IMG/VR virus record: IMGVR_UViG_3300043427_003220 | Location: 98,748-162,747 of that record | DNA: 64,000 bases | Direction: 5' to 3' (one strand) | From: a virus | Shown here: one piece after another, positions 11,306 to 39,970 of the stretch | How positions within the stretch are numbered: the stretch's first letter is position 1 | How the letters are laid out: every line of letters starts with the position of its first letter | Notes under the pieces: model-generated | What the model saw: the letters and a program-made list of their open reading frames with translations, nothing else | Told to the model about the DNA's origin: nothing | Databases searched by the model: none | Translations under genes and position numbers: made by a program

Positions 11306-11341
11306 TTCATTCTCCTAGTAGAAGGTTAATTTATATCTATT

Positions 11342-11611
11342 TTATTCAGGAAACGAGCGTTTTATCCCCACATCAATAATATTAAGCACTTGTTCTTTGG
11401 TCATCTGGCCATTTTTGAGGCATTCTAAGACATGTAATAAAATACACGCCATTGCTTCATTTCTTATATTTTGGTTCTTGATAGCATTCATTCTATTGGC
11501 AAAGTCATTCGATAATAGACTCACCAAAATTGAAAGTTGGTCAACTTTTTTCTCTCTTTTTGTCTTTTTTTCATTAATATCAATTACTTTCATAAGTTGC
11601 TTTAAAAGCAT
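11342..11611 (-). CDS. hypothetical helical protein, 89 aa
   Basis: The protein is mostly helical and contains the stretch MTKEQVLNIIDVGI. The ATG at 11611 sits only one base from GGAG, so the internal ATG at 11593 or another start may be used. It diverges from the endolysin gene, sharing the region with the sigma70 promoter at 11657. Function unknown. Confidence 0.5.
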   Translation of the reverse strand: MLLKQLMKVIDINEKKTKREKKVDQLSILVSLLSNDFANRMNAIKNQNIRNEAMACILLHVLECLKNGQMTKEQVLNIIDVGIKRSFPE

Positions 11612-18390: not shown

Positions 18391-18429
18391 AAAATAAAAA
18401 AGGGAAAGTCTCAGTTATTCTGAGACTTT
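18391..18429 (-). terminator. Rho-independent terminator at the end of the ClpP-like gene
   Basis: A 10-bp perfect stem (18405-18414 with 18420-18429, loop of 5) is followed on the minus strand by CCC and then TTTTTTATTTT. The stem includes the stop codon of the ClpP-like gene. It separates that gene from the recombinase gene, so uvsX expression relies on read-through or on an unseen promoter. Confidence 0.8.
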
Positions 18430-19347
18430 GAATCCCATTGCCTCGTCAATCATCTTACGAGCTTCTGCTTTATAATCAAGAATTTTTGTAAGTTGTTTTT
18501 GCAAACTTAGTTCTTGCGCAGGAGTTAGTGTGCCATTACGTGCAATTTCAACCGATTTTGGCTCAGTTATCAGCGGACACTTTGACCAAGTTATATTAAG
18601 GCGAACATAACCGCCGAATAGAGAAAGAGTTTGTTTTTCTTCTTTGTTTACCAAATCCGGTGTACAAACGGCTTGAGCAACGCGGTCGGCGGCCTTTGCC
18701 TTGACAGCATCGCGGCCAAATAGCCAATAATCATCTCTTACAAGTTGTTTAAATCTTTCTACTGGCAATTCCATGCGTTTTGCTTGTGCAGCATCAATTG
18801 CATTGGTCATTTGCTTCAAAAATTCAACAAACGCAATTGCATTTGGCTGAGGTTGGAACCTTAGTCCAAAAGAGGGAACATGTTGCATCAAAATAGATGA
18901 TTCGAGAACCACGCGCTCATCGCAAGCTTGAAGGATAACAAATGACATCGAAGCAGAAAAGTCTGTTACACAAACTACTTTTTTATTAACAGAACGAATT
19001 GCCTGTACAAGCTGTACGCCATCCATTACTGAACCACCGGGGGAGCTAAGAAACAAATTAACCGTATCCCCTTGAGCGGTCATCAAAGCAGAGATAGCTT
19101 TTGACACGCTGGTTCCGTCAACCTCGCCACGTAGTACGATTGTATTATCAGAAAGCACAATAGAATTTTTACTAGAAGTAAGCTTTTGTTGGCATTCAAG
19201 GCTTTGGCAAGTAACATCGCTGCTATTATTTTTTTGCGACAAAATTGGCTTAGAACTATTGTTTGAAAACTCAGAAGCTGAGGCTGACCCAACTGTTGTC
19301 AAAGCTAGAATAGACAATGGAATAGAAAGAAAAGACTTAAAAAACAC
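18415..19347 (-). CDS. exported ClpP-like serine protease
   Basis: The GTG at 19347 has GGAGG four bases upstream and yields 310 residues with a signal peptide (about 1-25, ending VGSASAS). The ClpP fold follows: LFLSSPGGSVMDGVQL (98-113), nucleophile Ser133 in SASMS, and His156 in LMQHVPSFG. An extra Cys-containing domain lies at the C-terminus. Like the lipoprotein at 9555-10178, it is sent out of the cytoplasm, unlike cellular ClpP. It may work in the periplasm; the substrate is unknown. The gene ends in a strong terminator. Confidence 0.8.
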   Translation of the reverse strand: MFFKSFLSIPLSILALTTVGSASASEFSNNSSKPILSQKNNSSDVTCQSLECQQKLTSSKNSIVLSDNTIVLRGEVDGTSVSKAISALMTAQGDTVNLFLSSPGGSVMDGVQLVQAIRSVNKKVVCVTDFSASMSFVILQACDERVVLESSILMQHVPSFGLRFQPQPNAIAFVEFLKQMTNAIDAAQAKRMELPVERFKQLVRDDYWLFGRDAVKAKAADRVAQAVCTPDLVNKEEKQTLSLFGGYVRLNITWSKCPLITEPKSVEIARNGTLTPAQELSLQKQLTKILDYKAEARKMIDEAMGFKVSE

Positions 19348-19403
19348 AAAACCTCCAATCGTATTAACAGCATAAGACAACACCATTGTTTCTTATGAAA
19401 TTA

Positions 19404-21553: not shown

Positions 21554-22106
21554 CTTTTTTGCCTTTCTTTTTTGGAGTCTGTTTCTTGTTTTTAGGTTTT
21601 GGCTCTTTCTCTACAATGAATTGTCCGTACTGGTTATACCAATAGCCAATCAATAGGGCATCAATGATGCCTTCATGCGGCTTGCTGCTTCTTTCTGTAG
21701 CAAGAAAATCCTCTAAAGGGAAGAGTTTTTTTGCAACCTCTAAACTTCTTGCCTTGGGGTCTTCAAAAGGTGACTCTGAGTCATGTAGTTTTGTTGCCCA
21801 AGTCCGAGGAGCGACTAGTGCAATATTATTTACAATTGCAGAGGCTGTGGCAAACAACAGTCCAAAGTTATAGCCAGAAGTCCAAGCTGAGCTGACTCCC
21901 TCTCCCGGTCTTGGTGCTTGTCTCTCTAAAACAACAACATCTGGCCGATGATTGACCATAAGCTGGCCAACTTCAACCAGATTGATTGTTGACTTTTTGT
22001 TCTTAAGGTTTTTGTCAATTGGCATCCTGCCGCGAGCAACGACTATGAAGCCGTCTAAAATTGCATAACCACCCGAAATACCGGGGTCAAAAGCCAAAAT
22101 TCTCAT
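21519..22106 (-). CDS. RuvC-like Holliday junction resolvase
   Basis: 195 residues with an RNase-H-like fold. The acidic catalytic residues are visible: Asp7 in AFDPGISGG, Glu61 in VVVLERQ, and Asp149 in HEGIIDALLIG (His144 five residues before). It would cut branched DNA before packaging. The C-terminal 35 residues are a Lys-rich extension. The ATG overlaps the stop of the primase gene. Confidence 0.88.
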   Translation of the reverse strand: MRILAFDPGISGGYAILDGFIVVARGRMPIDKNLKNKKSTINLVEVGQLMVNHRPDVVVLERQAPRPGEGVSSAWTSGYNFGLLFATASAIVNNIALVAPRTWATKLHDSESPFEDPKARSLEVAKKLFPLEDFLATERSSKPHEGIIDALLIGYWYNQYGQFIVEKEPKPKNKKQTPKKKGKKDEKTRKKPLGV

Positions 22107-23104
22107 AAGTTATTCCAGTCAATTAAATTATCCGTCTTATTTATAGTAAATTCTGGCTTCTTTGTCAATGTTCCCGCCTCTTGCATCAACTTATCTATAG
22201 CTACGAGTATCTTATCGTTGTGTATTTCGGGGTCTTTAAAGCAATGAAACAGGGCGTCTGGCCCAGTAATGTGCAGGTTGTCTCCATGGTTGTCGCCGCC
22301 CTCTTCTCGACAGCACGGGCAGGCTATTTGTAACTTGCCGCCAATCTCTGTTGATAGTCCCAAGTAAGTATTTACATACCAATCTAGCTTTTTGACAATG
22401 TCGGCTCTGTTTACTGCTTGCGGCGAAGCTTGAGCATCCTTTTGAAAGATTTGGTGCCACTTTGTTTGTTTGTATTTTTCCTCGAACGCAGGAGAATATA
22501 TAAGGTCAAACAATTCTGAATTGTCAATTCTGTCAGATATTTCGACAATTTGCTGTACTGTGTTAGACCTGATAGAATTCGGAAACCGAGTGAAACGAGC
22601 GGGGTCACTACATGCGCGGTCATTTTTCTCTTCGCATAAAAAATGAATCCTATAAAAGATGTCTTTGTATTGTAATAAGCCATTGCTTTTAAGCTCTCCT
22701 GTATGATGGTATAGAGGTTCTTTTAAAGAAATAATAAAATGATATGATTTGCCACCTGAATAAATGCAAGCCGAGTACGGTAAACCAATCTTTTTCATAA
22801 ATGGAATTTGTTCTTCGAGTGGCAGTTGGTCAAATTCTATAAGAAAATTTCTAAGAACAAATACGTTTTCAGATGTTTTATTGATATTAAGTTGTTTTGC
22901 GGCATTTACGGCAATGTAAGCGCCCCTTTCAAAGCTTCTGTCAATATACTGAAGGATAGCTTGCTCTTTTGTCATGGAGAAATGTTTTTGGAGCAGATAG
23001 TCTGCCGCCCAGACGTACTGCTCGTCTCCGTATAAAAGAGTCATATACTTAACGACGGGCATCAATATATCTCTTTTGATGCCGTCTCGTGGGGAATGGC
23101 GCAC
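22103..23104 (-). CDS. DNA primase, archaeo-eukaryotic type with C-terminal zinc finger
   Basis: 333 residues from a GTG start preceded by GGGGG. The AEP-type core shows FLIEFDQLP (metal-binding acidic pair), YSGGKSYHFII, and DPARFTRFPNS, all diagnostic of phage and plasmid primases. The C-terminus has a zinc-binding finger (CPCC, then H and C about 20 residues later). It makes primers for the polymerase. It is coupled to ruvC by a 4-base overlap and lies next to the helicase and AAA+ genes. Confidence 0.8.
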   Translation of the reverse strand: MRHSPRDGIKRDILMPVVKYMTLLYGDEQYVWAADYLLQKHFSMTKEQAILQYIDRSFERGAYIAVNAAKQLNINKTSENVFVLRNFLIEFDQLPLEEQIPFMKKIGLPYSACIYSGGKSYHFIISLKEPLYHHTGELKSNGLLQYKDIFYRIHFLCEEKNDRACSDPARFTRFPNSIRSNTVQQIVEISDRIDNSELFDLIYSPAFEEKYKQTKWHQIFQKDAQASPQAVNRADIVKKLDWYVNTYLGLSTEIGGKLQIACPCCREEGGDNHGDNLHITGPDALFHCFKDPEIHNDKILVAIDKLMQEAGTLTKKPEFTINKTDNLIDWNNL

Positions 23105-23117
23105 AAAGCCCCCTTAA

Positions 23118-24119
23118 TCAAAAATTATCGTAATCGTCATTAAAACCCATCGAACGCTGTTCTTTCTTTAGTCCACCCGATTCAGCCTTCTTACGTTGTA
23201 GTAGCACTTCAACCACCGCATCCGCAAGAGGAATATCATATAACTCATGCCGTAACACTGCTTCTTTGCTGTAAGCAGGAGTTAGCTTAGTTCCCACAAA
23301 CAACTGCTTCTCATCGGCAGTTAGTTCTCTATCCATAAACTTTTCTACAAGAAAAATAATTTCTTCGTCTTTTGGCGGCTCTACTTCACGGACGATGTCA
23401 AACCGTCCCGGTCTACTGGTCAAAGTTTTGTTCAATACATCTAGGTAGTTGGTTGTGGCTACAATCAAAGTAGGGATTTTGAATACATCTGCGTTGCCGT
23501 CCAAGAAGTTAAGCATCTCAGAATCAACACGGCCTGCTCTTTCTTCAAGGCCAGACCCGCCAATATCCTCTATAACCAAAAGAATCAAGCTGGCAGCCGA
23601 CTCTTGAGCATTTGAGAACATATCAATCAAAGTCTCAAAGCTGACTTGCTGAGAGTCTACTCTGAGAATGCAAGCCTTGGGCATCTTGATAATTTGGCGG
23701 CAAAAGTAGTTGATGAGGCTAGATTTACCAATCCCCGGTTCACTGCCGAACAAAAACCCTCTTTTGGGGGCAATCTTTCTTTTCTTGTAGATGTCCAGCT
23801 TAGACATAAAGACACTGAAGTGCTTCATGAGTTCTCTGGAGGTGTCTGTCTCGTAATACTGAATCTCTGTCAGTTCCATGGGCTGAAGACCCTCTTCAGG
23901 GGTAATACGCCATGCTCCTTCGGTAATCTTATAGGATTCTTTGGTCTTTGGTGTCTGAATGTCCATATCTAGCAGGTGAGGTTCTGATACCTTAACGACG
24001 TTTCCTAACTCATCTACAGACTCAATAGTCCTATTGACAACAAGCTGATAGTTGCCTAGCTCAACCTGTAAACCTGCCTGTAACTTAGTAATGCTCCGTA
24101 CTTTGGCTACTTTAGACAT
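23118..24119 (-). CDS. AAA+ ATPase
   Basis: 333 residues with a complete classical AAA module: Walker A GSEPGIGKSS, Walker B LLVIEDIGG, sensor-1 VATTN, and arginine-finger region SRPGRFD. The N-terminal 110 residues are a separate beta-rich domain. The SRPGRFD box is typical of proteasomal/FtsH/spastin-like ATPases rather than clamp loaders. It probably forms a hexamer that remodels a protein or nucleoprotein. GGAG lies five bases before the ATG. The partner is unknown. Confidence 0.88.
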   Translation of the reverse strand: MSKVAKVRSITKLQAGLQVELGNYQLVVNRTIESVDELGNVVKVSEPHLLDMDIQTPKTKESYKITEGAWRITPEEGLQPMELTEIQYYETDTSRELMKHFSVFMSKLDIYKKRKIAPKRGFLFGSEPGIGKSSLINYFCRQIIKMPKACILRVDSQQVSFETLIDMFSNAQESAASLILLVIEDIGGSGLEERAGRVDSEMLNFLDGNADVFKIPTLIVATTNYLDVLNKTLTSRPGRFDIVREVEPPKDEEIIFLVEKFMDRELTADEKQLFVGTKLTPAYSKEAVLRHELYDIPLADAVVEVLLQRKKAESGGLKKEQRSMGFNDDYDNF

Positions 24120-24129
24120 AACGACTCCA

Positions 24130-24402
24130 TTAATAACTAAAAATCAAATCATCTGCTGTTACATAAGTGTCATTAAAAAATCTGGGTGTTTCTTGGCGCA
24201 ATCTGGGGTCCAAAACATCGCTGTGCCACACTGCATTATCAGAAGACCTAGTGATGGCCGCTACTGCGACAAACGACTTATCGTCATCAATCCAAAAATT
24301 AGAAATAGTTAGAATTAGTCTTGGAGCGTCGTCATCGACATAATAGGCATTTTGCGATGTTTGGTCGAGTCCACCGTTCATATATCTATTTGGACGCATC
24401 AT
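24130..24402 (-). CDS. hypothetical protein, 90 aa
   Basis: Starts within GGAGGAGGAATG and overlaps the helicase stop (ATGA). A short beta-rich protein (LILTISNFWIDDDKSFVAVAAI). No recognised domain. Co-translated with the helicase. Confidence 0.6.
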   Translation of the reverse strand: MMRPNRYMNGGLDQTSQNAYYVDDDAPRLILTISNFWIDDDKSFVAVAAITRSSDNAVWHSDVLDPRLRQETPRFFNDTYVTADDLIFSY

Positions 24403-25418
24403 TCCTCCTCCACGTCTTCTGCCGGAATCAAGACAAAGTTATCATTCATCTGCCAAGTCGTAATATCTTTGCCGTACTTGTAAGGATAACGAACTTTTTG
24501 AATCTTTAGCCAAGTGCGAACTTCATTGTTGGCATTGACCTTCTTAACAAGCATAAGACCATGGGTCGCGTGGGTCAACGACTCTTTTGACTTTCTTAGG
24601 CAGCTAAACATATCCCACTGAAAGGCCGACCGCCCTGCTGGCGGATACATTTGCTGAAAGCAGATAACAGGGGCATACTTAGGAGACTTACGGCTGTTGA
24701 TTCTGAGGCCAAACTGCTGACTCATAGTTTCAATCTTTTTAAAATCTTCAACCTTGCCCTTGCCTGTATAACCAATATCAGCCATGGCGTTTGACAACTG
24801 GTCAACAAAAATTAAGTCTGGATTAAACTCCTGAGCACACCTAAACGTATAGGTACATAGGGTCAGCCACCCTAATGACAACCCTTGAGAAGACTCGGCA
24901 TCTTCAATACGAGAATACTGATAGACTCTCTTAAAAGCTTTTTCATAGGACAGGCCCAACATTGCGGCCAGCTTACGGCTAATTTCATTCCTATAGGCTT
25001 CAATAGGCAACTCGTTGGAAATAATCAAGATTCTTCGTCTGTTAGCAATAGCATGGGCAGCGGACTGCATACAAAAAGTTGACTTGCCGTTACCTGTAGG
25101 AGCACCCACAACGACAAAAGACTTTTTATGCAAAGTAAGTTGAAACTCATCTGAAAAGAAGGGAATGCGGTCTTCGACCATGTCTTGAAAATCTTTTGCT
25201 TCTGACAACGCTTGTTCAACGAGGCGCTCTTTAAAATCCTCTTCCGCTTCTTTTTGCTGACGTTCAGATTCTGCCAAAATTTCTTTAAGCTGATTTGGAT
25301 TAACAAGAATATCTTTTTGGGTGTCTCCGGTTTTAATAGAGACACTCCATGGAGTATCGGCTCCGACATCTCCAAACTGTGGGCTAGACCAATTTTCGTC
25401 TTCGTCGTGAGTAACCAC
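24399..25418 (-). CDS. DnaB-like replicative helicase
   Basis: 339 residues from a GTG with GAGG five bases upstream. A charged helical N-terminus (about 40-85) leads into a RecA-fold helicase core: Walker A GAPTGNGKST, a following ILIISNELP strand, Walker B LIFVDQLS and a GLMLVKKV strand near the end. It lacks the full N-terminal domain of bacterial DnaB, as phage helicases often do. It would unwind DNA at the fork with the adjacent primase and polymerase. It has its own sigma28-like promoter at 25443-25472. Confidence 0.82.
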   Translation of the reverse strand: MVTHDEDENWSSPQFGDVGADTPWSVSIKTGDTQKDILVNPNQLKEILAESERQQKEAEEDFKERLVEQALSEAKDFQDMVEDRIPFFSDEFQLTLHKKSFVVVGAPTGNGKSTFCMQSAAHAIANRRRILIISNELPIEAYRNEISRKLAAMLGLSYEKAFKRVYQYSRIEDAESSQGLSLGWLTLCTYTFRCAQEFNPDLIFVDQLSNAMADIGYTGKGKVEDFKKIETMSQQFGLRINSRKSPKYAPVICFQQMYPPAGRSAFQWDMFSCLRKSKESLTHATHGLMLVKKVNANNEVRTWLKIQKVRYPYKYGKDITTWQMNDNFVLIPAEDVEEE

Positions 25419-25442: not shown

Positions 25443-25472
25443 TCCTATCGGCATCACAAATCATAACTTTAG
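25443..25472 (-). promoter_or_regulatory. sigma28 (FliA)-like promoter upstream of the helicase
   Basis: On the minus strand: TAAAGTTA, 11 bases, GCCGATAG, one base from the FliA -10 element GCCGATAA. The -35 part overlaps the last codons of the polymerase gene and the -10 ends 26 bases before the helicase GTG. Confidence 0.7.
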
Positions 25473-28400
25473 TTCCATTAGCGGAACAATTCTTTTTACA
25501 TCTGGAAAATGCTTTCCATTCCATAACTTAGGAATCATTAAAACCATAACAATTTTCTTTGTTTGTAGATGCTCTTTGTATTTGTCCACCGAAGAGCCAA
25601 ATACATTGATACCTGTAATCTTATCTGTGCCTGTATCCAAAGTAAAGCTCAAATAAGGATTGCCGTTCTTTGAAAGTTTTGTCTCGACGTTAGTAATAAT
25701 TCCAACAACTCCAGCTAAGATTCTTGGTTCGTTGCCATATGTAATGTATCTTCTAGCATTTTCAGAGGATTCAACTACTTTTGACCAAGACTCAATAATA
25801 TCCATACGAGGAGCTTTGATGCCACCCTCTGTGTTTTTAGCGTCTGTAGGCTTAAATTCAATTGGGCGAGTAAATAGAATATTGTCCTCGCTATCGCCCT
25901 CAATAAAACCAAATTTATCAATAATCATCTTCTGAATATCTTGGAGCATGGCTACGCTGTAAGAATAGATTGGGTTATTTTCAGCTCGCCACAAAGACAA
26001 GGTAAATTCATCTTCAATCATAGACAAGCTGACTGTTTGAGTTCTTTTAAGCTTTCCGCCCGTTGATTTAGAATTCATAGCATCACGAAGTTGAGTAGCA
26101 TGAATAATAATATCTTTTGGAGTGTCTGTTTGCGACGGCAAAATTTCTTTAAAAGCTCCGGCGTATAATAGGTTGATTACGGTTGTAGCCGTAAAACTAA
26201 TTGCGGCCTTGGCTTTTTTAGAATCAGCCAATGCCAATAAAAAACTGCCCCACTGATGGTCTGGGTTAGACATATCAACGTGTCCACGAATAAACTCGCC
26301 AACCGCTTTAGCGGCCTCAACGCCGACGCCCTTAATCATAGCTAATGGAGCGCGAATCTTGTCACCTTCAACAATCCATTCGTGAGAGTGGGAATGCAAA
26401 ACCGATGGCTGGAGAACATATTCGCGGCACTCAGACAAAAAGGCTAGAATCTTTTCTTCCTTGCCGCGATTGACTGTTAGCTTGCCAAGCCAATAATAAG
26501 CGGGGTAGTAACATTTAATCATTGCTTCAATATAAGCAATTACGCCGTAACTTGCGCTGTGGCTTTTGTTAAAGCTATAGCGGGCAGTTGCAACAACCGT
26601 ATCAACCAATCGTTGAGCTTGCTCCTCGTTCCAGCCTCTCTTTAGTGCTGCCTGCTTAAGGTCATCGCACAGGGCATCCATTAATTTTTTATCTTTTTTG
26701 CCCGTAGCGCGACGCCAATCATCAGCTTGTTGGTCATTTAAGCCCAATACAAGCTTGGCAATAGCCATAAGTTGCTCTTGATAAACAAGAACCCCATATG
26801 TTTCTGACAAAATTGGCTCTAACTCAGAATGGACATAATAAGGGTGTTTGCGATTGTTAGAACACTCAACATAATAATCAGCAGCAGTAAGAACGCTGCC
26901 ATCAGGAGCTGGAGCATCAAGAGCACCAGGGCGGCAGAGAGCAATAAGGGCTGCAAGGTCTTTGACATTTTTTGGAGGAGCTTTTTGAATGAAGGGGGCA
27001 ACCGCTCCTCCACTAATCTGGAAAATACCTGATATTTTGTTTTGATGAATAATATCGGCAAATACGCGCTCGTCGTGCTCAGGTTGTTTCCACTCAAACG
27101 AGACGCCCAAGTTTCTTTTAATTGCTTCAAATGAGTATGACAGGCTTTCAAGAGTTTTAACACCGAGAAAATCGAATTTAACGCCGCCAACATATTCGAC
27201 CCATTTCATTGTGTAGGCAGTTGCTAATTGGTCATTTACCTTTGTAATAGGAATAACATTTTGAATTGGCACTGGAGTAATGACAACGCCGCCGGCATGG
27301 ACGCCGCGAGCTTTAGGGATACCTGAACAAGCCAATACGACTTCCCAAATCTCTTTTTCTTCTTCAATATATTTCTTAAATCTTTCGGCAGCTTGCGTGC
27401 CGCTTTCTAAAAAACCTTGTACATGCTCGCTTGTGGATTCGTCTTCATATCCAAACAAAAAATGAAGGTCAGAAACACCCTGCGGCACAAAAGGCATATC
27501 GTCCAGCACATCTTCCGTTGATGAGCGTACCTTGCCAAACATCCACCGCTCGACTTCGCGGATAGTCAGCTTGAGGCGCATAGCCACATCCGTTGAAATA
27601 AGAGCCATCTTGTCTTGGTATTTAGCTTTGAGATAATCAAGGCAGACTTCGCGTACCGAAATATCTAAGTCAATATCAGGAAATGAGCCTCCTTTAACGC
27701 GGCCTTCGTTCAAGAAGCGCGAGAAGGGCAGCTTCCATTCAATGGGGTCAATAATTGAAATACCAATCAGGTAAAGCGCCAATGAACTACAACCAGAACC
27801 ACGGGGGTTGGCAAGGTAGCCACGCTCACGCATAGCGTTACAGACATCATGTACCGTAAAGATGTATGGTAAGAAATCATAACCAAGTTGTGTCAGTACG
27901 CGGATTTCCTCTTTAAGGCGGTCTGCATAGATGGCTGCTTTTTCTGGGTCTTTGGGGAAACGGCCATTCTCAACAATCAACTTCTTAAGATGTTGAACCG
28001 ATGACGACTCTGTCGATACGTTGTAAACAGACTCCATAGTCGGCAGCAGGTGCCGAGTCTTACTGGTTTCAAACTTATAATCTTTAAATTGCTCAAAAAT
28101 CTTGTATGAGTTATCAACCCATTCTTCTATGTCTCTCGACGTAATTTCAGGGAGTTGTTTTAGCAGTGCTTCTGCCCATACGTCTGGGCTTTCTAATGAA
28201 TAAGAGCAGCTAAACCGCCAGTTGTCGCCAAGGCGAACATCTTGTACAACTTTATGTTCTTTGACAGCAATATGAGCATCCTCTGAGATAACGATAGGGT
28301 CTTTGTACTTGCGAGCCATCATAATCATAAACTGATTAGTGGCTTTTTGAAGGTCAATAGGCAGGCCACACTCATCAAGGTCGTTTGGAACAAACATACC

Positions 28401-29051
28401 TGACTTAATAATTTCTTTTGATACTTTGTCGTATTCTGGCCTAATCCACTTTTGGTCTAGGATATGAGGCATAACTTCTACAAAGAAAGATTCAGGCCCA
28501 ACAATAGACCTAATCTTTTGATAAATTTGTTCTGCTAGCTCAGGGCTTCCAGACTTGAGGGCTTTAGAGACAGCCGAACCATAGCAGCCGCTGCCTAAGA
28601 CAATCTCGCTTCCAATCTCTTGCAGCTCTTCCCATGTAATCAATGGCTTCATGTCACCGTACTTGATTAAGGCGCGGTCATGAGCAATGGGAGTTAATGA
28701 AGAAAAGTATTCATACGCCTTTTGAGTTTTAAACAGGACTGTCATATGACAGGTGGCCGGCTCTTCTTTGCCATTTTTGTAAATCTTTGGCGGCTCCCAC
28801 GGAGACATAAGATATGCCTCGACTCCGTGAATAGGAGTGAGGCCAGCTTTCATTGATTCTTCATATAGTTCGGCCAAGCCGCCCATCTGGCCATGGTCAG
28901 TCAATGTTGCAGACTTGCGTCCCAACTCCTTTGAGCGTTTGACGAGAGCCTTAACTGAAGACCCTCCATCAAGAGATGCCTGAGCACTATGGCAGTGAAA
29001 GCACATGCACAGTGGGCGATACTTAGGCAATTTAGGAGTTAGGATTTCCAT
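25461..29051 (-). CDS. dnaE: DNA polymerase III alpha subunit (C-family)
   Basis: 1196 residues, the size of bacterial DnaE. The N-terminal PHP domain keeps its metal-site motifs (HCHS, TDHGQMGG, GVEAYL), so it could proofread. The catalytic palm has PDIDLDIS (about 457-464). Further family blocks include ARGVHAGGVVITP and GVLVYQEQLMAIAKL, and the C-terminus has an OB-fold region (VVGIITNVETKLSKNG). It replicates the phage genome. No sliding clamp or loader is in the window, so the host clamp or genes elsewhere must serve. Confidence 0.95.
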   Translation of the reverse strand: MEILTPKLPKYRPLCMCFHCHSAQASLDGGSSVKALVKRSKELGRKSATLTDHGQMGGLAELYEESMKAGLTPIHGVEAYLMSPWEPPKIYKNGKEEPATCHMTVLFKTQKAYEYFSSLTPIAHDRALIKYGDMKPLITWEELQEIGSEIVLGSGCYGSAVSKALKSGSPELAEQIYQKIRSIVGPESFFVEVMPHILDQKWIRPEYDKVSKEIIKSGMFVPNDLDECGLPIDLQKATNQFMIMMARKYKDPIVISEDAHIAVKEHKVVQDVRLGDNWRFSCSYSLESPDVWAEALLKQLPEITSRDIEEWVDNSYKIFEQFKDYKFETSKTRHLLPTMESVYNVSTESSSVQHLKKLIVENGRFPKDPEKAAIYADRLKEEIRVLTQLGYDFLPYIFTVHDVCNAMRERGYLANPRGSGCSSLALYLIGISIIDPIEWKLPFSRFLNEGRVKGGSFPDIDLDISVREVCLDYLKAKYQDKMALISTDVAMRLKLTIREVERWMFGKVRSSTEDVLDDMPFVPQGVSDLHFLFGYEDESTSEHVQGFLESGTQAAERFKKYIEEEKEIWEVVLACSGIPKARGVHAGGVVITPVPIQNVIPITKVNDQLATAYTMKWVEYVGGVKFDFLGVKTLESLSYSFEAIKRNLGVSFEWKQPEHDERVFADIIHQNKISGIFQISGGAVAPFIQKAPPKNVKDLAALIALCRPGALDAPAPDGSVLTAADYYVECSNNRKHPYYVHSELEPILSETYGVLVYQEQLMAIAKLVLGLNDQQADDWRRATGKKDKKLMDALCDDLKQAALKRGWNEEQAQRLVDTVVATARYSFNKSHSASYGVIAYIEAMIKCYYPAYYWLGKLTVNRGKEEKILAFLSECREYVLQPSVLHSHSHEWIVEGDKIRAPLAMIKGVGVEAAKAVGEFIRGHVDMSNPDHQWGSFLLALADSKKAKAAISFTATTVINLLYAGAFKEILPSQTDTPKDIIIHATQLRDAMNSKSTGGKLKRTQTVSLSMIEDEFTLSLWRAENNPIYSYSVAMLQDIQKMIIDKFGFIEGDSEDNILFTRPIEFKPTDAKNTEGGIKAPRMDIIESWSKVVESSENARRYITYGNEPRILAGVVGIITNVETKLSKNGNPYLSFTLDTGTDKITGINVFGSSVDKYKEHLQTKKIVMVLMIPKLWNGKHFPDVKRIVPLMELKL

Positions 29052-29390: not shown

Positions 29391-31554
29391 AAATCACCTC
29401 ATCAAAAAGGCCGTCATCTAGGCCATGTTCAACAATAATTACGAGCTTCTTGCTCGCTACACTGCGCAAACTCTCAATACAGTCGTTCTTTAGTTCAGTA
29501 TGCGCTCCTGCAAACGCTTCGTCAAGGAGAAGTATTGGACTGTTAAATAAGTCTGACAAAGCCAACTGAAACGCCAACATTGCTCTGTTTTGTTCACCTC
29601 CACTGAGTTGTTCAAGACTGTCATACTCAACCCCTTTATGAAAAACCGTTGTACTCATCTTGGCACGAACCGTATCGTCCTTATTCTGCTTCACGTTGTT
29701 CAGCGTAATTACTGTGCCTTGATTTGGAAACAGCAATTCGGTGTACGCCTTAGCGTGAGCGTTGATTGAGCTTAGAATGGCTGCGACAGATTGTGTCGCG
29801 GCAGCATCGCTTAGCTCTTTCAACTTTAGAGCTTTCTTCAGCTTGTTCTCTGCAGCCAATTGGCTTTTGAGCTTAGCTTCGTACTTGCCCTGAGCCTCCT
29901 TGGCTCTCTCAATACTCTTTTCGACATCTTGTTGCGCTTGCTTTAACTGTTTTTCATAAATTTCATCAATTTCAACTACTTGAAGCTTTTCTTTTAATTC
30001 GGCAACGTCCGTTGCACAATTGTCTAATTCTATTTGAGCTAGTGCCCATTCTTTATAAATAGCCTTGCCCTCTGCCATAAGGGCATTGAGTTTAGGTTGG
30101 TTGTCAGACAGAGAAGCCTTGGTCTTGGCTATGTTGTCTTCTAGTTTTTGAATCTCAGTTTCAAGGGATGACTTTGTGAAATTGTACATAGAGACAGAAA
30201 TTTCAATAACTTTGATTTTTTCTTGAAATTGATTGAGTTGTTCTTGAGTCTGAGCTGCTGGCAATGGTGCTGGCCCTAGCTCAGTTGTCTCTGCTTGCAA
30301 TCCTTTAAGCTCTCGGTGTAAATGAACTAAAGAAATGCGTTCAGCGTCAATTTTATTCTTAGTGGCTTTGACTGCATCTATTTCTTTTTTAATATCGACG
30401 AGAGAACTTCCTCTATGGTCGTGAGCTTTTATTAAATTATTATTAGAAAAAATAACAGACTGATTGCAATGTGGGCAGGGAAGTTCTTTAGAGCTAAGCT
30501 CAGCACGATATTTTTTTCCTTCTAATTCCTTGAGCTTATCTTCTTGCTCCCAAAACTCTGTACTAAGTTTATCTATAGTTTTTTCTATGTTTTTAATTTC
30601 ACCGTGTTTTTGCACAATATTTTGAATCTTTTGAAGCTTCTTGACCGTCTCCGTTGATTTTGCTAACCAGACAGTTTGTGCCTGAATTAGAGAATAGGCG
30701 GCTTTAATCTTTTCTGCGGTGTACTTTTCATCGGGAGGCTCTAACGAATTTAATTTGTCTTTTTGTTCAATCAAGTTTTTTGTATGTTCACTTAAAGCAT
30801 TCTCAAGATTGTTAATAACATTCTGTAGGTCGCGGGTTGCATCTTTAATATCTTCGAGCAATTTCTTCTTTTCGTTAAAGTTTTTCTCAGCGTCTTTGTA
30901 TTTTTGTTTAACAACGTCTGCGTCAGCAAATAAAAACAGGCGCTCAGCCGCTGTATAAACGGGCTTTTTCTGCTCACTAAGGCGAGCCTCGGCAGCTTCT
31001 TGAGCGGACTTAGCTGCTTGAGCTATCTCAGCAAGCAAAGTCAACTCAGATGCCTGAGTTTTGATTGTCCCCTCAATCTCCTTAATCATGACTGAGATTT
31101 TGGCTTTATGAATTTCTGGGTCGTCAGCTCCAAAGGCAATCTTCTGAACAAAGCGAAGCTGCTCTGCTGGACTAAACGACAGTAATGAACCCTTGAGCTT
31201 CTGTTTAATATAAGAGCAAGCCTGAAAAATGTCTGCGTTCATGCCCAGTGTCGTGTCAATAAAAGCCTGAGCAGCCTCATTCTCATACTGATTGGACTCG
31301 ATAAGCAGCCTATTAGGCGAGTTCTGCCGCAAAACGGGCATGTCTTTGAATGTGATGTTTACAATAGGCTTCTTGCTGCCAGTCAAAGGTTTTACACCCT
31401 TGGCAACAGCTTCTCCGTATAGACCCCAAGAGATAGCATCAAGGAATGTAGACTTGCCAGCACCTGAGTCGCCGGCAATACGAACAAGGCCCGTATTAGG
31501 CAATTCAATCTCTTTGTCTTCAATAGACCGAAAGTTTTGAATCTTAATTTTCAT
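29383..31554 (-). CDS. SbcC/gp46-like recombination ATPase
   Basis: 723 residues with SMC/Rad50 architecture: N-terminal Walker A GDSGAGKST, long coiled coils broken by a zinc hook CPHC near residue 360, then the ABC signature LSGGEQNRAML, Walker B ILLLDEAFAG and an H-loop IIVEHG. With the SbcD homologue it forms the nuclease that resects ends for recombination and may degrade host DNA. Start and stop overlap both neighbours. Confidence 0.92.
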   Translation of the reverse strand: MKIKIQNFRSIEDKEIELPNTGLVRIAGDSGAGKSTFLDAISWGLYGEAVAKGVKPLTGSKKPIVNITFKDMPVLRQNSPNRLLIESNQYENEAAQAFIDTTLGMNADIFQACSYIKQKLKGSLLSFSPAEQLRFVQKIAFGADDPEIHKAKISVMIKEIEGTIKTQASELTLLAEIAQAAKSAQEAAEARLSEQKKPVYTAAERLFLFADADVVKQKYKDAEKNFNEKKKLLEDIKDATRDLQNVINNLENALSEHTKNLIEQKDKLNSLEPPDEKYTAEKIKAAYSLIQAQTVWLAKSTETVKKLQKIQNIVQKHGEIKNIEKTIDKLSTEFWEQEDKLKELEGKKYRAELSSKELPCPHCNQSVIFSNNNLIKAHDHRGSSLVDIKKEIDAVKATKNKIDAERISLVHLHRELKGLQAETTELGPAPLPAAQTQEQLNQFQEKIKVIEISVSMYNFTKSSLETEIQKLEDNIAKTKASLSDNQPKLNALMAEGKAIYKEWALAQIELDNCATDVAELKEKLQVVEIDEIYEKQLKQAQQDVEKSIERAKEAQGKYEAKLKSQLAAENKLKKALKLKELSDAAATQSVAAILSSINAHAKAYTELLFPNQGTVITLNNVKQNKDDTVRAKMSTTVFHKGVEYDSLEQLSGGEQNRAMLAFQLALSDLFNSPILLLDEAFAGAHTELKNDCIESLRSVASKKLVIIVEHGLDDGLFDEVIYV

Positions 31555-32177
31555 TGTTTTTTTTCTTTAATATAAGTTTCTAAAATAAATTGTTTTTTGC
31601 TGCTTTTATTACGAACTATAGGATATAGCCAAATAGTTTTTGGTAAACCTGTTTTTAAAACAGCCTCTCCTGTCTTAAGAGCATCTCTCATTTTGTAACT
31701 ATAATCTCTATCAATTGTGATAGACCTTGGATGATAAGTTTTTCCATTCCATTCTACAAATTTTGTAGGCGTTGTCGTTCCTATTTTTTTAAAATTAGCT
31801 GCTTTATAAATTGTTCCGCTGTGTCCTACGGTCGCATCGCTGTACGATAGTACATTTTCATAATCTGAATTAAATTTAACCCACTGAATAATTTGACCTA
31901 AAAACCAACTTTCACTATTAACAGGGGCGCTATCTAAACAAGCCATTCTACGAATGTCTATACAATTTTTGTATTTTTTTTCATGTCTGGGTTTTCCTAA
32001 TACGCTACCGCCGACTAATTTATCATCTATAAACATAGCAAAACACACGCTAATTCCGCCGCCCATGTGAGCTTTTTTATAATGAAAATTTTGAAAAATT
32101 TCTCGGATATCAGCAAATCTGCAAATTTTTATTTTGCATCTTTTTTTATCTAATCTTTCCCTTGTATCGTTTGACAT
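31551..32177 (-). CDS. Mom-like DNA modification protein (GNAT fold)
   Basis: The ATG at 32177 has GAGG five bases upstream; 208 residues. The pattern VGGSVLGKPRHE, IRRMACLDSAPVNSESWFLG and LSYSDATVGHSGTIYKAANF matches the Mom protein family of phage Mu and relatives. Mom is a GNAT-like enzyme that converts adenine to N6-(methylcarbamoyl)adenine and so protects DNA from restriction. The gene is wedged between the sbcC and sbcD homologues and overlaps both coding neighbours or their stops, so the set is co-transcribed. Identification is by motif, not by search. Confidence 0.75.
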   Translation of the reverse strand: MSNDTRERLDKKRCKIKICRFADIREIFQNFHYKKAHMGGGISVCFAMFIDDKLVGGSVLGKPRHEKKYKNCIDIRRMACLDSAPVNSESWFLGQIIQWVKFNSDYENVLSYSDATVGHSGTIYKAANFKKIGTTTPTKFVEWNGKTYHPRSITIDRDYSYKMRDALKTGEAVLKTGLPKTIWLYPIVRNKSSKKQFILETYIKEKKQ

Positions 32178-32184
32178 GCTATCC

Positions 32185-33156
32185 TCAAGCAAGAGCTTCG
32201 TTAAAAATGCTCATCAACTCTGTATCGTCACTTCCTACCATTTCCTTTAGGAGTTCCAAATAGGTTTTTTTGACAATGGTCGCATTTAAGGAAAGTTCGT
32301 TTTCAGTTGGACATAATACAATTTTGACATTTTTTTGTGCGAGTTCTGAATATCCTTTTGTTTTTTTAAATGCAGACAGGGCAGACGCCTCTCCTTCCAG
32401 CATAAGGCGCAGATGAGTATTTTCTGGAACTTTAAACTTTTTAACTTGGTCAAGAGTCAACTTAACAGTCAGCTTTTTGGGCATACCAAGGTCAATTCGG
32501 GTGTGCTTTACAGATTCACCGAATTCAAACAGACTCAGGCCCTTCTCATCAGTTTCGGCAAAGGTCGTCATGTAGGGAGTGCCAACATAACAAATGTTCT
32601 TTTCTAGCCACTGATGCTCATGAATATGGCCACTAATGACTAGGGGGAAGTCTTCTGGCCATTTGTCGCCATGTTCCATCTTGATGCCGTTTAGCTCAAC
32701 TCCGTAAAAGTCTTGATGGCAAAAAATAGCCTTTGCGCTCTTCCAGCCTTCACACGTATCAAGTGCCTCTACAAACCTTCCTGCAGGCACGTAGGGCATC
32801 AAAATTAAACCATAGTGGCTAACTACTCTATCTACAATCTTGACGCGGTCTAGGCCGCCAAATGCCTTTAAAAAATGGTTGTCTGACAAAAACTGAGAGT
32901 TGTTGATGTAGTCATGGTTTCCTACAAGAACATATACCGTACAGATTGAGCCAATTTCCTTTAAGAGTTTTAGGACTTGATTAAATGGTTGAACGTAGGT
33001 TGTTCCGTGATTGTGGAGCAAGTCTCCCATAAAAACGACAATATCGGGAGAGGACTCCCAAACTTTTTCTTTTAGCTTTTCGATTAGTAAGTCATTTTCT
33101 ACAATAGATGAATGTCTAAAGTGAATATCCCCAACACATAAAATTCTTAAATCCAT
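32185..33156 (-). CDS. SbcD/gp47-like (Mre11-type) nuclease
   Basis: 323 residues with all calcineurin-like phosphoesterase blocks: GDIHFRH, FMGDLLHNHG, LVGNHDY, FCHQDF and SGHIHEHQ. It pairs with the SbcC-like ATPase downstream as a double-strand-end exo/endonuclease. GGGG lies four bases before the ATG. The Mom-like gene separates the pair. Confidence 0.92.
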   Translation of the reverse strand: MDLRILCVGDIHFRHSSIVENDLLIEKLKEKVWESSPDIVVFMGDLLHNHGTTYVQPFNQVLKLLKEIGSICTVYVLVGNHDYINNSQFLSDNHFLKAFGGLDRVKIVDRVVSHYGLILMPYVPAGRFVEALDTCEGWKSAKAIFCHQDFYGVELNGIKMEHGDKWPEDFPLVISGHIHEHQWLEKNICYVGTPYMTTFAETDEKGLSLFEFGESVKHTRIDLGMPKKLTVKLTLDQVKKFKVPENTHLRLMLEGEASALSAFKKTKGYSELAQKNVKIVLCPTENELSLNATIVKKTYLELLKEMVGSDDTELMSIFNEALA

Positions 33157-34894: not shown

Positions 34895-36508
34895 TTATCT
34901 TGTCTCCGTAATAAGAGACTTTAATTTACGCAACTCATCCATCTTTTGCAAATCTGCAGTCAAACTAAAGCAAGCGGTTGTACTACACATCGCAGCAAGC
35001 TCACAAGCATTGCGCAATACGCTCATGCAAGTTTCCGCCGCGTCGCAAACTTGTAAGTCCTTGTAGTGTCCTACCTTAACAGAGCCGTCTTCCTGTACAG
35101 CGTAAGTCTCGTTCTCTTTACGGGGCGGGACTTTGGCGCCAAGATTCTCGAACACTTTATCGGTGACAGCAGATAGGGCTTGAACAAGGTTTTCAGGCAA
35201 TCCACAAGCCAATGCGGCCTGTTGGTACATGACGCCACACCCAGGTACAATGCCACCTCTTCTTGCCGCCTGAGCCGCTTTAATAGCATCATCGACTCGG
35301 TCAGCTCGCTCTTGTACTGCAGCAGCATGGCCAGCGCCAACGACGATAGTAACTAGCCCCTCAGTCAACTCAGCATTACGGGCAGCGATTACGTCCTTAT
35401 CAAAAGCAGAACGAGCAGCTTCCATAGCGTTGATATTTTGTTGAGCACGCTTGGGGATAAAGTGATTCTTGTTGCGACCATGTAGAACTGTCTTATAAGG
35501 GTGAACAACTACATGATTGCAAGTACCCAAGTTTTCTACCTTAGCACGACCATAAGAAGCACCGTCAAAGATTTCAGCGTTAGTGATAGCAGCGATGTCC
35601 ATGAGAATTTGCATGCCGCTATTGAATTCGGCAGTCTGGCGTACCTTGGAAACAAAAATACTAACTTTGCCAGCATACTTACGATTTACAGGGATCAACT
35701 CATTACAGACGCTTTCGGCCACGTCGTAAGCAAAAACTAAAAGAGTAAATCTGTTATTTGTCTTGATGCCCAAATCAGTTACAGCCGCGTTGAGCTGCTC
35801 TAGTGAATGAATCTCGCCGTTATACAGAAAAATATAGGGTTTTTCCATTTGAAAAGGAAGATTTTCGCCTACCTTGTCCGAACAACTCATAGCCAAGGTG
35901 GGATGATGATTGTAGCCACGGCCGGCATTGTACCCATCTTGTAGTTCAACTTTATAGCGCTCTTTAGCTGCTACATTCTTTTCAACGAGAATAGTGCCAT
36001 GAACGCTGGTCTTATTAAGAGCTTCCATAACGGAATTAACAATTTCCATATCGCCATTTGATGACGTTTTAGCTACCATGGCGACCGCTTCTGGGTCTTT
36101 AACTGCATTTTCTCGAATGTAGTCGATACAATCCTCAATGTGATGTTCAACCTGACGAGCATAAGCTTGCGGAGCGGCTGCATTTTTTTCTTTGATTGCT
36201 TTAGCCAAAGCCGCGCTAAGGACAAGAGTTGAAGTTGTGCCGTCCCCAGACTCCAAAACAGAATGATTAGCGGCCTGTTTAGCAAAGTAATGCACCGCGT
36301 GTTTGATTGGGTCTGTAAACTGCATCCAGCTGATGGTGGTTACCCCGTCTTTGGTGACGGTTGGTTGCATCTCACCCATTTGATTTGGCTTGTCAAATAT
36401 AACCGGTAAACCCGCTGGCCCTAAAGTTGACCCGACAGCCTCTGCGATTTCCTGCAAAGCATCTACCGCCATATCGCGGGCTTGTTTACCTACGACTAAT
36501 TGTTTCAT
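34895..36508 (-). CDS. groEL: GroEL-type chaperonin
   Basis: 537 residues, close to bacterial GroEL (about 548). ATP-site blocks are conserved: STLGPAG, VTKDGVTT, SGDGTTST and DRVDDAIKAAQAARRGG with GIVPGCG (GroEL has GGG). The apical region is divergent and the Gly/Met C-terminal tail is missing. Jumbo-phage chaperonins of this kind fold phage proteins, some without a GroES partner, and none is seen here. The start overlaps the upstream stop. Confidence 0.93.
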   Translation of the reverse strand: MKQLVVGKQARDMAVDALQEIAEAVGSTLGPAGLPVIFDKPNQMGEMQPTVTKDGVTTISWMQFTDPIKHAVHYFAKQAANHSVLESGDGTTSTLVLSAALAKAIKEKNAAAPQAYARQVEHHIEDCIDYIRENAVKDPEAVAMVAKTSSNGDMEIVNSVMEALNKTSVHGTILVEKNVAAKERYKVELQDGYNAGRGYNHHPTLAMSCSDKVGENLPFQMEKPYIFLYNGEIHSLEQLNAAVTDLGIKTNNRFTLLVFAYDVAESVCNELIPVNRKYAGKVSIFVSKVRQTAEFNSGMQILMDIAAITNAEIFDGASYGRAKVENLGTCNHVVVHPYKTVLHGRNKNHFIPKRAQQNINAMEAARSAFDKDVIAARNAELTEGLVTIVVGAGHAAAVQERADRVDDAIKAAQAARRGGIVPGCGVMYQQAALACGLPENLVQALSAVTDKVFENLGAKVPPRKENETYAVQEDGSVKVGHYKDLQVCDAAETCMSVLRNACELAAMCSTTACFSLTADLQKMDELRKLKSLITETR

Positions 36509-37222: not shown

Positions 37223-37555
37223 TCATCCTTGACTTTCATACTTTCCTGATTTTTGAGGCAAGAAGCAAAATACTTCTTTTGCGTCTACTTCAAAAGATAG
37301 TTTTGCGTCTCCGTTGGCATCTTCCCATTTATCAATAATCAAATCACCATGCACCAAAGCAACGTGGTCTGGCTTGATATAGCCTTCAACAATAGCGACC
37401 AAGCTGCCTTTAACGGTGACTTTGTGCCATTGAATTGCTTTGTATTTATTAATAACGCCGACTTTGAATATTAGAATTTTGCCGTTTGGATATGATTTAG
37501 TTTCGATATCTTTTCCGATTTTGCCGACTAATTCAACTTTGCAGAACGAACTCAT
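37223..37555 (-). CDS. single-stranded DNA-binding protein, SSB-like OB fold
   Basis: 110 residues with the SSB pattern: VELVGKIGKDIETK, FKVGVINK, WHKVTVKGSLVAIVEGYIKPD and a closing LSFEVDAKEVFCF strand. It lacks the acidic C-terminal tip of bacterial SSB, so it may not recruit host partners. It is the first gene of the leftward early block and faces the initiator gene. The AAGGAG before the ATG is strong. Confidence 0.75.
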   Translation of the reverse strand: MSSFCKVELVGKIGKDIETKSYPNGKILIFKVGVINKYKAIQWHKVTVKGSLVAIVEGYIKPDHVALVHGDLIIDKWEDANGDAKLSFEVDAKEVFCFLPQKSGKYESQG

Positions 37556-37637
37556 AACTCTCTCCTTGTTTAAAACGACTTAATCAATGAATAAGTAGTT
37601 TGACTTTCAAAATCAAATTAGATTAACTTAAAAAAAT

Positions 37638-37665
37638 TAAAGTTTTCTAAACCGAAGTCCGAAAA
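37638..37665 (+). promoter_or_regulatory. possible sigma28-like promoter of the initiator gene
   Basis: TAAAGTTT, 12 bases, TCCGAAAA resembles the five FliA-type promoters but has one extra spacer base and two -10 mismatches. A sigma70 alternative is TTGACT (37600-37605) with TTAACT 17 bases on. The 129-bp divergent region 37556-37684 must hold promoters for both directions. Confidence 0.35.
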
Positions 37666-37684
37666 GAGAAAAGCGGAGGTTTTT

Positions 37685-39133
37685 ATGTCAACGCGCTTAA
37701 AAAGTTCAGATATCTTGATTAATACTCTTTCGCACGATGGGTATTGGATGGTTAACAAGAAGATTGCCAGCCTACTTGGCAATGATGGAGCCATCATACT
37801 GTCTGACTTGGTTTCAAAGTACAAATACTTCAAAACTAAAAAAATGTTAGAAAATGATGGTTTTTACAATTTTTCTGAAAACTTAGAGAAAGACTGTAAC
37901 GTCTCTCGTTATATTAGGAGAGAGATTTTTCAAAAATTACAAGACGTTGGGTTTTTGAAAATAGAGAAGCAGGGCTTCCCTCCAAGAAATTACTACTATA
38001 TTCAACATGATAGCATTTTGGAGTTTTTGCACTCCGAAGACGAACACGCTGAAAGTATTGAAGAATTAGAGAATTCCCATAGAGGTCAAAATTTACCTCT
38101 CCATAGGGGTGAAAATTTACCTCTCCATAGAGGTCAAAATTTACCTCTCCATAGGGGTGAAAATTTACCTCTCCATAGAGGTCAAAATTTACCCCAACAA
38201 GTATATAGTAATAAGAATAAAGAAATAACAATAAAGGAACAAGAACAAAGCACGCCGCCTGCGGCGGCACCCTCCCCCTCTTCTGTTTTGGTAGTTTTAG
38301 GACAAAACGAATTAAAAGAGTTTGCTCGAAGAGCAAAAAATGTCTTAATGCGTAAACTTCCAAAAGTTGCGGCCAACAATAGCCATAAGGTTGAAGACCA
38401 AGTCGTAGCGTTTACGGAAGTTATCTTTGGGGATTTGCCTTATGAATGGTGGAAGTACGAAAATGGCAAAAGAAAGTCAGTCCCCGGTAAGGTTCCTCCC
38501 GTTGCGTATCCTTGGGACTTTGACACTGCTGAAAAATTTGACACACTGGTGGACTTAGCTAGCGAATGGCTCAAAAAACCTAAAGTCTTCTTCGAGAAGA
38601 CCGAATGGACTCAGGAATCCTACTCAAATGTCATTACGGAAAACCTAAGAGAGTGTTTGTTTAATAATGATAGTTACTTACCCCCTCACGAACAAGCGGA
38701 AAAAAATCGCAAAGCTAAGCAAGAAATAATTGAGGATAAACAAAAGTCTCAAGAAATCACCCAAGCTATTGAAAAAATGCAAAAGATAGAGCAGGCAAAA
38801 AAGGAGGGTTTATTCGATACGACCAAATGGGCTGTTACGCCAGAAGAGCTTGTCGATGCCCATAAAGCAGGCATGGCATTTTTTGTCATGAAAAAGACTG
38901 CACCCTGCGTAGAAAGTTATGTTTATGATTTTATTGAAGATTTAGTTGACATTGGTAAGGCTGAGATGCCAGACTCTTTCAGACATCCTGAGTGGGTAGA
39001 GGGATTTATGGTTGCAATTACGGACGCGGTTGACTCTAGAACAGACTGGACGTGGAAGAATCCTGAGTGTAAAACAGCTATGGAGGCTGTTCATGCTCTT
39101 GTGAGAAAATACACTGCAGATGCAGAAGGATAA
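37685..39133 (+). CDS. replication-initiator-like protein with winged-helix N-terminus and internal iterons
   Basis: 482 residues, with GGAGG before the ATG. The N-terminal about 115 residues look like a winged helix (IASLLGNDGAIILSDLV; SRYIRREIFQKLQDVGFLKIEK). Residues about 132-170 are five HRGxNLPL repeats coded by 24-bp iterons. A Pro-rich linker, a helical middle and a C-terminal domain follow. This layout (DNA-binding N-terminus, origin inside the gene, C-terminal partner domain) parallels lambda O. The helical region near 330-370 is charged. Initiator function is inferred from architecture. Confidence 0.7.
   Translation: MSTRLKSSDILINTLSHDGYWMVNKKIASLLGNDGAIILSDLVSKYKYFKTKKMLENDGFYNFSENLEKDCNVSRYIRREIFQKLQDVGFLKIEKQGFPPRNYYYIQHDSILEFLHSEDEHAESIEELENSHRGQNLPLHRGENLPLHRGQNLPLHRGENLPLHRGQNLPQQVYSNKNKEITIKEQEQSTPPAAAPSPSSVLVVLGQNELKEFARRAKNVLMRKLPKVAANNSHKVEDQVVAFTEVIFGDLPYEWWKYENGKRKSVPGKVPPVAYPWDFDTAEKFDTLVDLASEWLKKPKVFFEKTEWTQESYSNVITENLRECLFNNDSYLPPHEQAEKNRKAKQEIIEDKQKSQEITQAIEKMQKIEQAKKEGLFDTTKWAVTPEELVDAHKAGMAFFVMKKTAPCVESYVYDFIEDLVDIGKAEMPDSFRHPEWVEGFMVAITDAVDSRTDWTWKNPECKTAMEAVHALVRKYTADAEG
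38077..38193 (+). repeat. five 24-bp iterons, putative replication origin
   Basis: Units start at 38077, 38101, 38125, 38149 and 38173 (the last is 21 bp). Each contains a dyad AGAGGT-N8-ACCTCT or the variant AGGGGT-N8-ACCTCT. Two versions alternate A-B-A-B-A, giving a 48-bp higher-order unit. Iterons with dyad symmetry inside an initiator gene are the hallmark of lambdoid origins. Confidence 0.75.
38194..38240 (+). other. A-rich stretch beside the iterons, possible unwinding element
   Basis: About 47 bases directly after the iterons are strongly purine- and A-rich on the + strand (A, T and few G/C). In lambda, an AT-rich region next to the iterons is where the helix opens. The stretch also encodes part of the linker of the initiator-like protein. 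Confidence 0.45.
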
Positions 39134-39136
39134 GAA

Positions 39137-39970
39137 ATGACAATTAATGACCGCAATAGTCGCAAAGGTTTGATTGGACTAGGGCCTATTCCTAAAAAGG
39201 CTCCCGTTGCGGCGTTTAATATAGACCAAATTCATGACTTATTGCGCACTAAAGGTTTTTTAGCATTTCATTGCCGGCATGCGCTTAATCCTAAGCGCAA
39301 TACCTTAAACGCAGGCATGGATTTGTCTGAAAAGGGAGCGGAGCGCCCGTTCATTTTTTACGATATCCGACCCATTCTCATGGTTGGGCAGGATTTTTCT
39401 GTTCGAGACACTTTGACGGCTATGGGATTATACGGCACCGGAACTTCAATGTTTAGCGTTGCTGGAGAGTATCTCGATGGTTCACAAGAACGTGTTTTTA
39501 TTAGAATTAATGATGTTATTATTTTAAATCCAACAATGACGGAGCTTTTTGAGCAAAACTTTGAGTATAAAGGCGAAAAGGAAACATCGCTAATGTATCG
39601 CGCTCGCGCCGTCGATTATATGCTTACTGCTCGCGGAACTCGTTTGAACGAAGGCTTGGACTTTCATATTACGACCGAAGGTAAGATTCAGTGGGTTGAG
39701 AGTACGGACAAACCCAAAGTTGGCGAGATTGTCTCAATTGTGTATTACTATCAGCCAATCTTTATTGTTCGAGCTTTGCCGCACAACATCAGGCTTCTGC
39801 CGTCAAATAATCTTGGTAGCGGCAATATGCCACGCGACATTAAATATGCTCCACAGCTCGTATTATGCGACTATTCTACAGTGCGAGACGGGCCGGAAAA
39901 CTCAATAGATTTTTTTAATTTGCCAGAGTTACAAAATTGGGAACAATTTTTAATTAAGCCATCGAAATGA
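39137..39970 (+). CDS. putative virion structural protein, 277 aa
   Basis: AAGGA precedes the ATG. The protein is beta-rich with no membrane segment; blocks such as RPILMVGQDFSVRDTLTAMGL and GEIVSIVYYYQPIFIVRALPH look like a structural fold. It starts a run of four closely packed genes (39137-42554) of similar style that I take to be head-tail or tail components. A specific role cannot be assigned. Confidence 0.55.
   Translation: MTINDRNSRKGLIGLGPIPKKAPVAAFNIDQIHDLLRTKGFLAFHCRHALNPKRNTLNAGMDLSEKGAERPFIFYDIRPILMVGQDFSVRDTLTAMGLYGTGTSMFSVAGEYLDGSQERVFIRINDVIILNPTMTELFEQNFEYKGEKETSLMYRARAVDYMLTARGTRLNEGLDFHITTEGKIQWVESTDKPKVGEIVSIVYYYQPIFIVRALPHNIRLLPSNNLGSGNMPRDIKYAPQLVLCDYSTVRDGPENSIDFFNLPELQNWEQFLIKPSK

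Follow-up and report, generated by a model that had tools for sequence, protein, structure and literature searches.

A candidate early replication origin inside the initiator gene of a large phage

The 64-kb window analyzed here is the last part of a 162,747-bp virus record. A site near 38.1 kb is, in our estimate with a probability of about 85%, the early replication origin of this phage, located within its initiator gene and bound by the encoded protein. Intragenic origins of this architecture are known from many other phages. The architecture is already described for lambda and for RepA_N plasmids (PMC7466680, PMC5703833). The novelty lies in this instance of it, in a large phage that supplies much of its own replisome and whose initiator has an orphan C-terminal domain, and in the overview of a family in which iterons are replaced and the layout stays constant. 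The site provides a precise candidate origin for a phage that encodes much of its own replisome, a group in which origins have rarely been mapped, and would extend the lambda-like intragenic design beyond the temperate phages and plasmids in which it was elucidated. The features are collected in Table 1.

Table 1. Features at and around the candidate origin (window coordinates)
Feature	Position	Strand	Remarks
Initiator gene, 482 aa	37685-39133	+	Winged helix ~1-116; linker coded by iterons and putative unwinding element ~131-190; orphan C-terminal domain ~209-482
Winged-helix DNA-binding domain (predicted)	37685-38041	+	AF2, Foldseek, profile search
Five 24-bp iterons	38077-38196	+	In frame in ORF 37685-39133, codons 131-170; core GGTNAAAATTTACC invariant
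Iteron dyads, copies 1-5	38081-38100, 38105-38124, 38129-38148, 38153-38172, 38177-38196
A-rich stretch, putative DNA-unwinding element	38200-38250	+	TATATAGTAATAAGAATAAAGAAATAACAATAAAGGAA...; directly after the iterons
GC hairpin GCCGCC-TGC-GGCGGC	38254-38268	.	Immediately to the right of the A-rich stretch
Divergent intergenic region between SSB (leftward) and initiator (rightward)	37556-37684	.	Unchanged over much of its length in relatives; change point of GC skew at 37653
SSB	37223-37555	-	PF00436, E=4.8e-12; first gene of the leftward replication module
DNA polymerase III alpha	25461-29051	-
DnaB-like replicative helicase core	24399-25418	-	phrog_19, E=2.8e-12; weak DnaB_C
AAA+ ATPase, candidate helicase loader	23118-24119	-	PF00004, E=4.5e-10
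DNA primase	22103-23104	-	phrog_2597, E=4.7e-11

The iteron array and the adjacent A-rich stretch

The initial annotation described five in-frame 24-bp iterons, each with the dyad AGAGGT-N8-ACCTCT. The five in-frame copies were confirmed, but only the first and third carry the exact dyad; five of six arm pairs are kept in copies 2 and 4 (AGGGGT..ACCTCT) and four of six in copy 5 (AGAGGT..ACCCCA). Tandem Repeats Finder (TRF) reported positions 38077-38193 either as period 24 (4.9 copies, 91%) or as period 48 (2.4 copies, 100%). The 14-bp core occurs five times without mismatch in the window, and a search of the whole record allowing up to one mismatch returned only the five array sites (one site for the reversed control pattern). 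No other iteron-like array was found in the record, the remaining tandem repeats being mostly of longer period and coding-like. Two close relatives, the IMG/VR contigs L002 (95% protein identity) and L003 (83%), have five copies at the same codons with the core kept and outer arm bases changed; one copy in L003 is a perfect dyad, TGGGGT-AAAAATTT-ACCCCA. The uniqueness of the array and the retention of copy number and core in these relatives argue for an origin. A scan of the contig collection with the tandem pattern matched the two close relatives and two further contigs. These two, L101 and L102, match AAAATTTACC-N-GGTNAAAATTTACC, and their spacing is a little wider.

The order of the two iteron variants, read earlier as A-B-A-B-A, is correct for the window. 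The accompanying suggestion was that the alternation may reflect a 48-bp duplication or dimer binding. A functional dimer unit was rejected, since the 95%-identical L002 has the order A-A-B-B-B', and the alternation is better read as array turnover than as a functional 48-bp or dimer unit: copy number and core are constrained and the A/B order is not, a pattern that would fit slippage or unequal exchange between repeats.

Read in frame, the array encodes a regular octapeptide (H-R/W-G-x-N-L-P-L/H) with Q/E/K changes between copies, and the repeat might instead be a protein-level feature, a flexible or interaction segment of which the DNA repetition is a by-product. We regard this as highly improbable. 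The glycine, asparagine and leucine codons are GGT, AAT and TTA in 15 of 15 copies of three phages, despite usages of about 0.28, 0.59 and 0.18 in the phage. Distant relatives carry at the equivalent position an octapeptide, AEKDAQYR, that is chemically unrelated to that of the window, and yet the DNA architecture is the same. Furthermore, in the plasmid pSK41 the iterons (Rep boxes) lie inside rep and are bound by the N-terminal domain of Rep, and the protein segment encoded by the origin is a dispensable linker (PMC5703833). Compared with synonymous recodings that preserve the peptide, dyad symmetry was higher in the window (P=0.014), in L003 (P=0.036) and in the distant relatives L108 (P=0.017) and L136 (P=0.007), and was not significant in L107; given the peptide, support for the dyads is moderate. 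Within the iteron block alone, 19 of 26 codons are unchanged between the window and L003, and synonymous constraint was not significant (P=0.08). The excess of dyad symmetry counts in favor of an origin; its moderate strength, the L107 result and the iteron-block result count against one.

As previously noted, an A-rich stretch follows the iterons; positions 38200-38250 comprise 32 A, 8 T, 8 G and 3 C. The 50-mer of lowest stability in the initiator ORF falls within this stretch and ranks in the top 0.5% of the window in this respect. Between the window and L003, all 16 informative codons of the stretch are free of synonymous change, compared with 193 of 337 unchanged codons (57%) elsewhere in this gene (Fisher P=1.8e-4), which indicates constraint at the DNA level. 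This constraint, and the position of the stretch as the least stable DNA of the gene, are further arguments for an origin. To its right, the hairpin is the only one in the window with an all-GC 6-bp stem and a 3-nt loop. In L003 the same stem encloses another loop, AGA, though the surrounding residues differ. Folding z-scores were not significant for the window or L003, so that the case for the hairpin is the conservation of its stem rather than its folding energy.

The initiator protein and its relatives

A winged-helix N-terminus had been proposed from the sequence, and the AF2 model of residues 1-119 is indeed a winged helix (pLDDT 78). The full-length model was poor (pLDDT 42) and structural work used the winged-helix model only. 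Foldseek placed the RepA_N initiators 5kbj, 4pql, 4pt7 and 4pta at ranks 1-5 and 8 (E from 4.6e-3, TM about 0.53-0.57), and a family profile search returned the same four PDB sequences first, with E values from 0.0024 (4pta) to 0.09, and only 0.1 with a more diverse alignment. The RepA_N family model itself, PF06970, gave no match to the initiator even at E<=10. By these models the winged helix appears to be nearest, at a distance, to the RepA_N plasmid initiators. Membership of the lambda O family is not supported: PF04492 (Phage_rep_O), with which lambda O itself scores 5.7e-36, did not match the initiator, and hhalign comparison of the initiator and lambda O profiles gave a probability below 1%. 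PHROG 9773, annotated as 'replication initiation O-like', matches initiator residues 25-124 (E=1.8e-5) and 10 of the 12 winged-helix sequences of the family alignment. For the C-terminal domain, no relatives were found beyond the two close ones. A scan of genome contigs for the winged helix returned no relatives, and consequently no host was identified.

More distant relatives (L105-L108 and L135-L137) share the winged helix only, at about 36-49% identity. At the same gene position they carry an unrelated in-frame 24-bp array, TGGGCT-GAAAAAGC-AGCCCA (with an N8 centre), and AATAAGAATAAAGA, a run of the window's A-rich stretch that is likewise present in L105-L108. Arrays of 23 bp occupy this position in Escherichia phage SaltyDalty, Vibrio phage PVP-XSN, IKEMa6-1, two Bacillus-group plasmids, a faecal phage contig and L139, and Vibrio phage X29 has a 21-bp array there. 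The recurrence of the architecture with unrelated repeats in winged-helix relatives supports the origin assignment; since peptides and DNA words differ and the DNA layout is constant, we argue that the DNA rather than the peptide has been selected. Some relatives weigh against the origin assignment: TRF detected no iteron array in Flavobacterium phages, L138 or the Lactobacillus (L. delbrueckii) phages LL-Ku/Ld17, in which the A-rich codon run is present. L139 (IMG/VR 3300030105_003769), a winged-helix relative with its 23-bp array inside the gene, has a Phg_2220_C C-terminal domain, and the same N-terminal domain thus occurs on different C-terminal domains. Contig L100 has long tandem arrays of 33, 54 and 120 bp (4050-4450 and 10946-11410) that encode Ala/Glu-rich repeats and are unlike the iteron array.

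These O-like initiators (SaltyDalty; the Vibrio phages X29, PVP-XSN and IKEMa6-1; the Bacillus smithii and Parageobacillus plasmids; L105-L108, L135-L137 and L139) resemble the window initiator in their winged helix and in the in-frame 20-24-bp tandem repeats and A/T-rich codon run that follow it, and differ from it in having unrelated iteron sequences and other C-terminal domains. In several of them a DnaC/IstB-like or helicase gene follows. Relatives with the same winged helix, different iterons and the same layout provide a natural data set on the joint change of an initiator and its binding sites where those sites double as coding sequence. Tentatively, and on balance with the odds against it, the initiator may belong to a broad, unrecognised superfamily joining phage O-like and plasmid RepA_N proteins, in which iterons are freely replaced while a DNA 'grammar' is kept (dyads recurring about every 24 bp, an A-rich stretch of Asn/Lys codons and, in some members, a hairpin), and in whose large-phage branch an orphan C-terminal domain loads a phage-encoded helicase. 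If so, a lambda-style origin would fire a largely host-independent replisome.

Comparison with lambda and RepA_N origins and a model for initiation

The initial annotation called the origin 'lambda-type'. This is partly supported: the term is right for architecture, would be right for mechanism and does not hold for family. The succession of iterons, A-rich stretch and palindrome, and their place in the gene, agree with lambda, and the profile comparisons described above reveal no O-family kinship. In both genes, dyad-armed iterons with A-rich centres lie in frame just after the winged helix (from codon 117 in lambda and 131 in the window), with an A-rich region rightward of them; in lambda this tract is about 39 bp and an inverted repeat lies beyond it (PMC6022878, PMC3349717). 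The annotated lambda iterons are four 18-bp elements spaced 20, 24 and 23 bp apart, compared with five regular 24-bp copies in the window. The window initiator also lacks detectable sequence homology to O, and its orphan C-terminal domain spans about 270 aa. The gene that follows it is not P-like, and this phage, unlike lambda, encodes its own polymerase, helicase and primase.

The second comparison is with the RepA_N initiators (pSK41, pTZ2162; PF06970) and PLE RepA of the ICP1 satellite, which supply the closest solved folds and the top profile matches. The published description of RepA_N iterons, as direct repeats that are semi-palindromic and converge on a poly-A tract (PMC7145576), fits the window array, which likewise lies inside the initiator gene. 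Shared with these systems are also the central position of the origin in rep and a modular, lineage-specific C-terminal domain (PMC5703833, PMC7145576). In contrast, PF06970 is unmatched here, the element is a 163-kb phage rather than a plasmid or satellite, and the phage shows no sign of the antisense-RNA copy control of the staphylococcal members. Both the lambda O layout and the fact that the nearest folds are iteron-binding initiators favor an origin.

In lambda, two O molecules occupy each dyad iteron, and unwinding takes place in the 39-bp A-rich tract beside the iterons (PMC6022878, PMC7466680). The C-terminal domain of pSK41 Rep contacts primase (PMC5703833). By analogy with these systems, we propose that the N-terminal winged helix binds the five dyad iterons, probably as one dimer per dyad, and that the initiator would wrap them into a nucleoprotein complex, thereby straining and opening the adjacent A-rich stretch. 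The C-terminal domain would then recruit helicase machinery. Gene content suggests that the likeliest partners are phage-encoded, namely the DnaB-like helicase, the AAA+ ATPase and the primase. Replication would proceed from the site, presumably in both directions.

Genomic setting and GC skew

The initiator gene had been placed next to the point where leftward replication genes and rightward genes diverge, and this is correct, with SSB on the other side; SSB is the initiator's neighbor also in the close-relative contigs G001 and G002. The divergence of replisome genes here, together with a skew change point at the site, is consistent with an origin. From SSB on, the leftward module additionally encodes chaperonin-like, SbcD-like, SbcC-like and Mom-like proteins, a resolvase and a UvsX-like recombinase. 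To the right of the initiator, the gene at 39137-39970 is matched best, though weakly, by a phage family of virion structural proteins, and in comparison with phage families it was neither P-like nor DnaC-like.

GC skew, which had been suggested as a check, changes sign at 37653 (support range 37237-38428), but this change is inseparable from gene direction, which the skew tracks throughout the record (+0.044 in plus-strand genes and -0.075 in minus-strand genes). Because the reversal coincides with the switch in gene direction, it is consistent with an origin without being decisive. The cumulative skew of the whole record has another low near 10.7 kb, which counts against the assignment. In G001 the cumulative minimum (30,465) is 87 bp from the A-rich stretch (30,378), with adjacent C-rich sequence influencing the exact point; the change-point fit for this contig is dominated by one contig end.

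In iteron plasmids, iteron arrays can act in control and partition. The window iterons might accordingly be regulatory sites for the initiator or a different phage protein (in autorepression, in the control of copy number or incompatibility, or in partition), with replication starting elsewhere, and the strong conservation of the upstream divergent intergenic region would suit such a role. We consider this improbable: the array lies 0.4 kb inside the gene, where it adjoins a constrained and highly unstable A-rich stretch in the standard layout of an origin, and no counterpart was found elsewhere in the record. A promoter scan of the divergent region gave no signal above chance. Its non-coding segment AATAAGTAGTTTGACTTTCAAAATCAAATTAGATTAACTTAAAAA (37600-37645), nearly unchanged in L002 and L003, has TTTGA-N9-TCAAA arms and, lying between divergent replication genes, is a possible operator or promoter.

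An origin at this site may also serve the first rounds only, with most DNA arising later at other sites through recombination-dependent or rolling-circle replication; we would give this reading somewhat less than even odds. The UvsX/RecA-like recombinase, SbcCD-like proteins and resolvase are in keeping with such a switch, as is the read depth of ICP1, which suggests a shift of origin during infection (PMC7145576). Nothing specific speaks against it, and it differs from our preferred reading, an early origin within the initiator gene, in scope only.

Other genes of the window include a divergent GroEL/Cpn60-like chaperonin encoded within the replication module (34895-36508) and a Mom-like DNA modification protein (31551-32192) adjoining the SbcC/SbcD-like genes. 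Two minus-strand genes (9555-10226 and 18415-19386) encode ClpP-like or head-maturation-protease-like proteins and lie well away from the capsid gene (60043-61578), and a 537-aa protein with a C-terminal NUDIX domain is encoded at 7744-9357, at the end of a rightward block.
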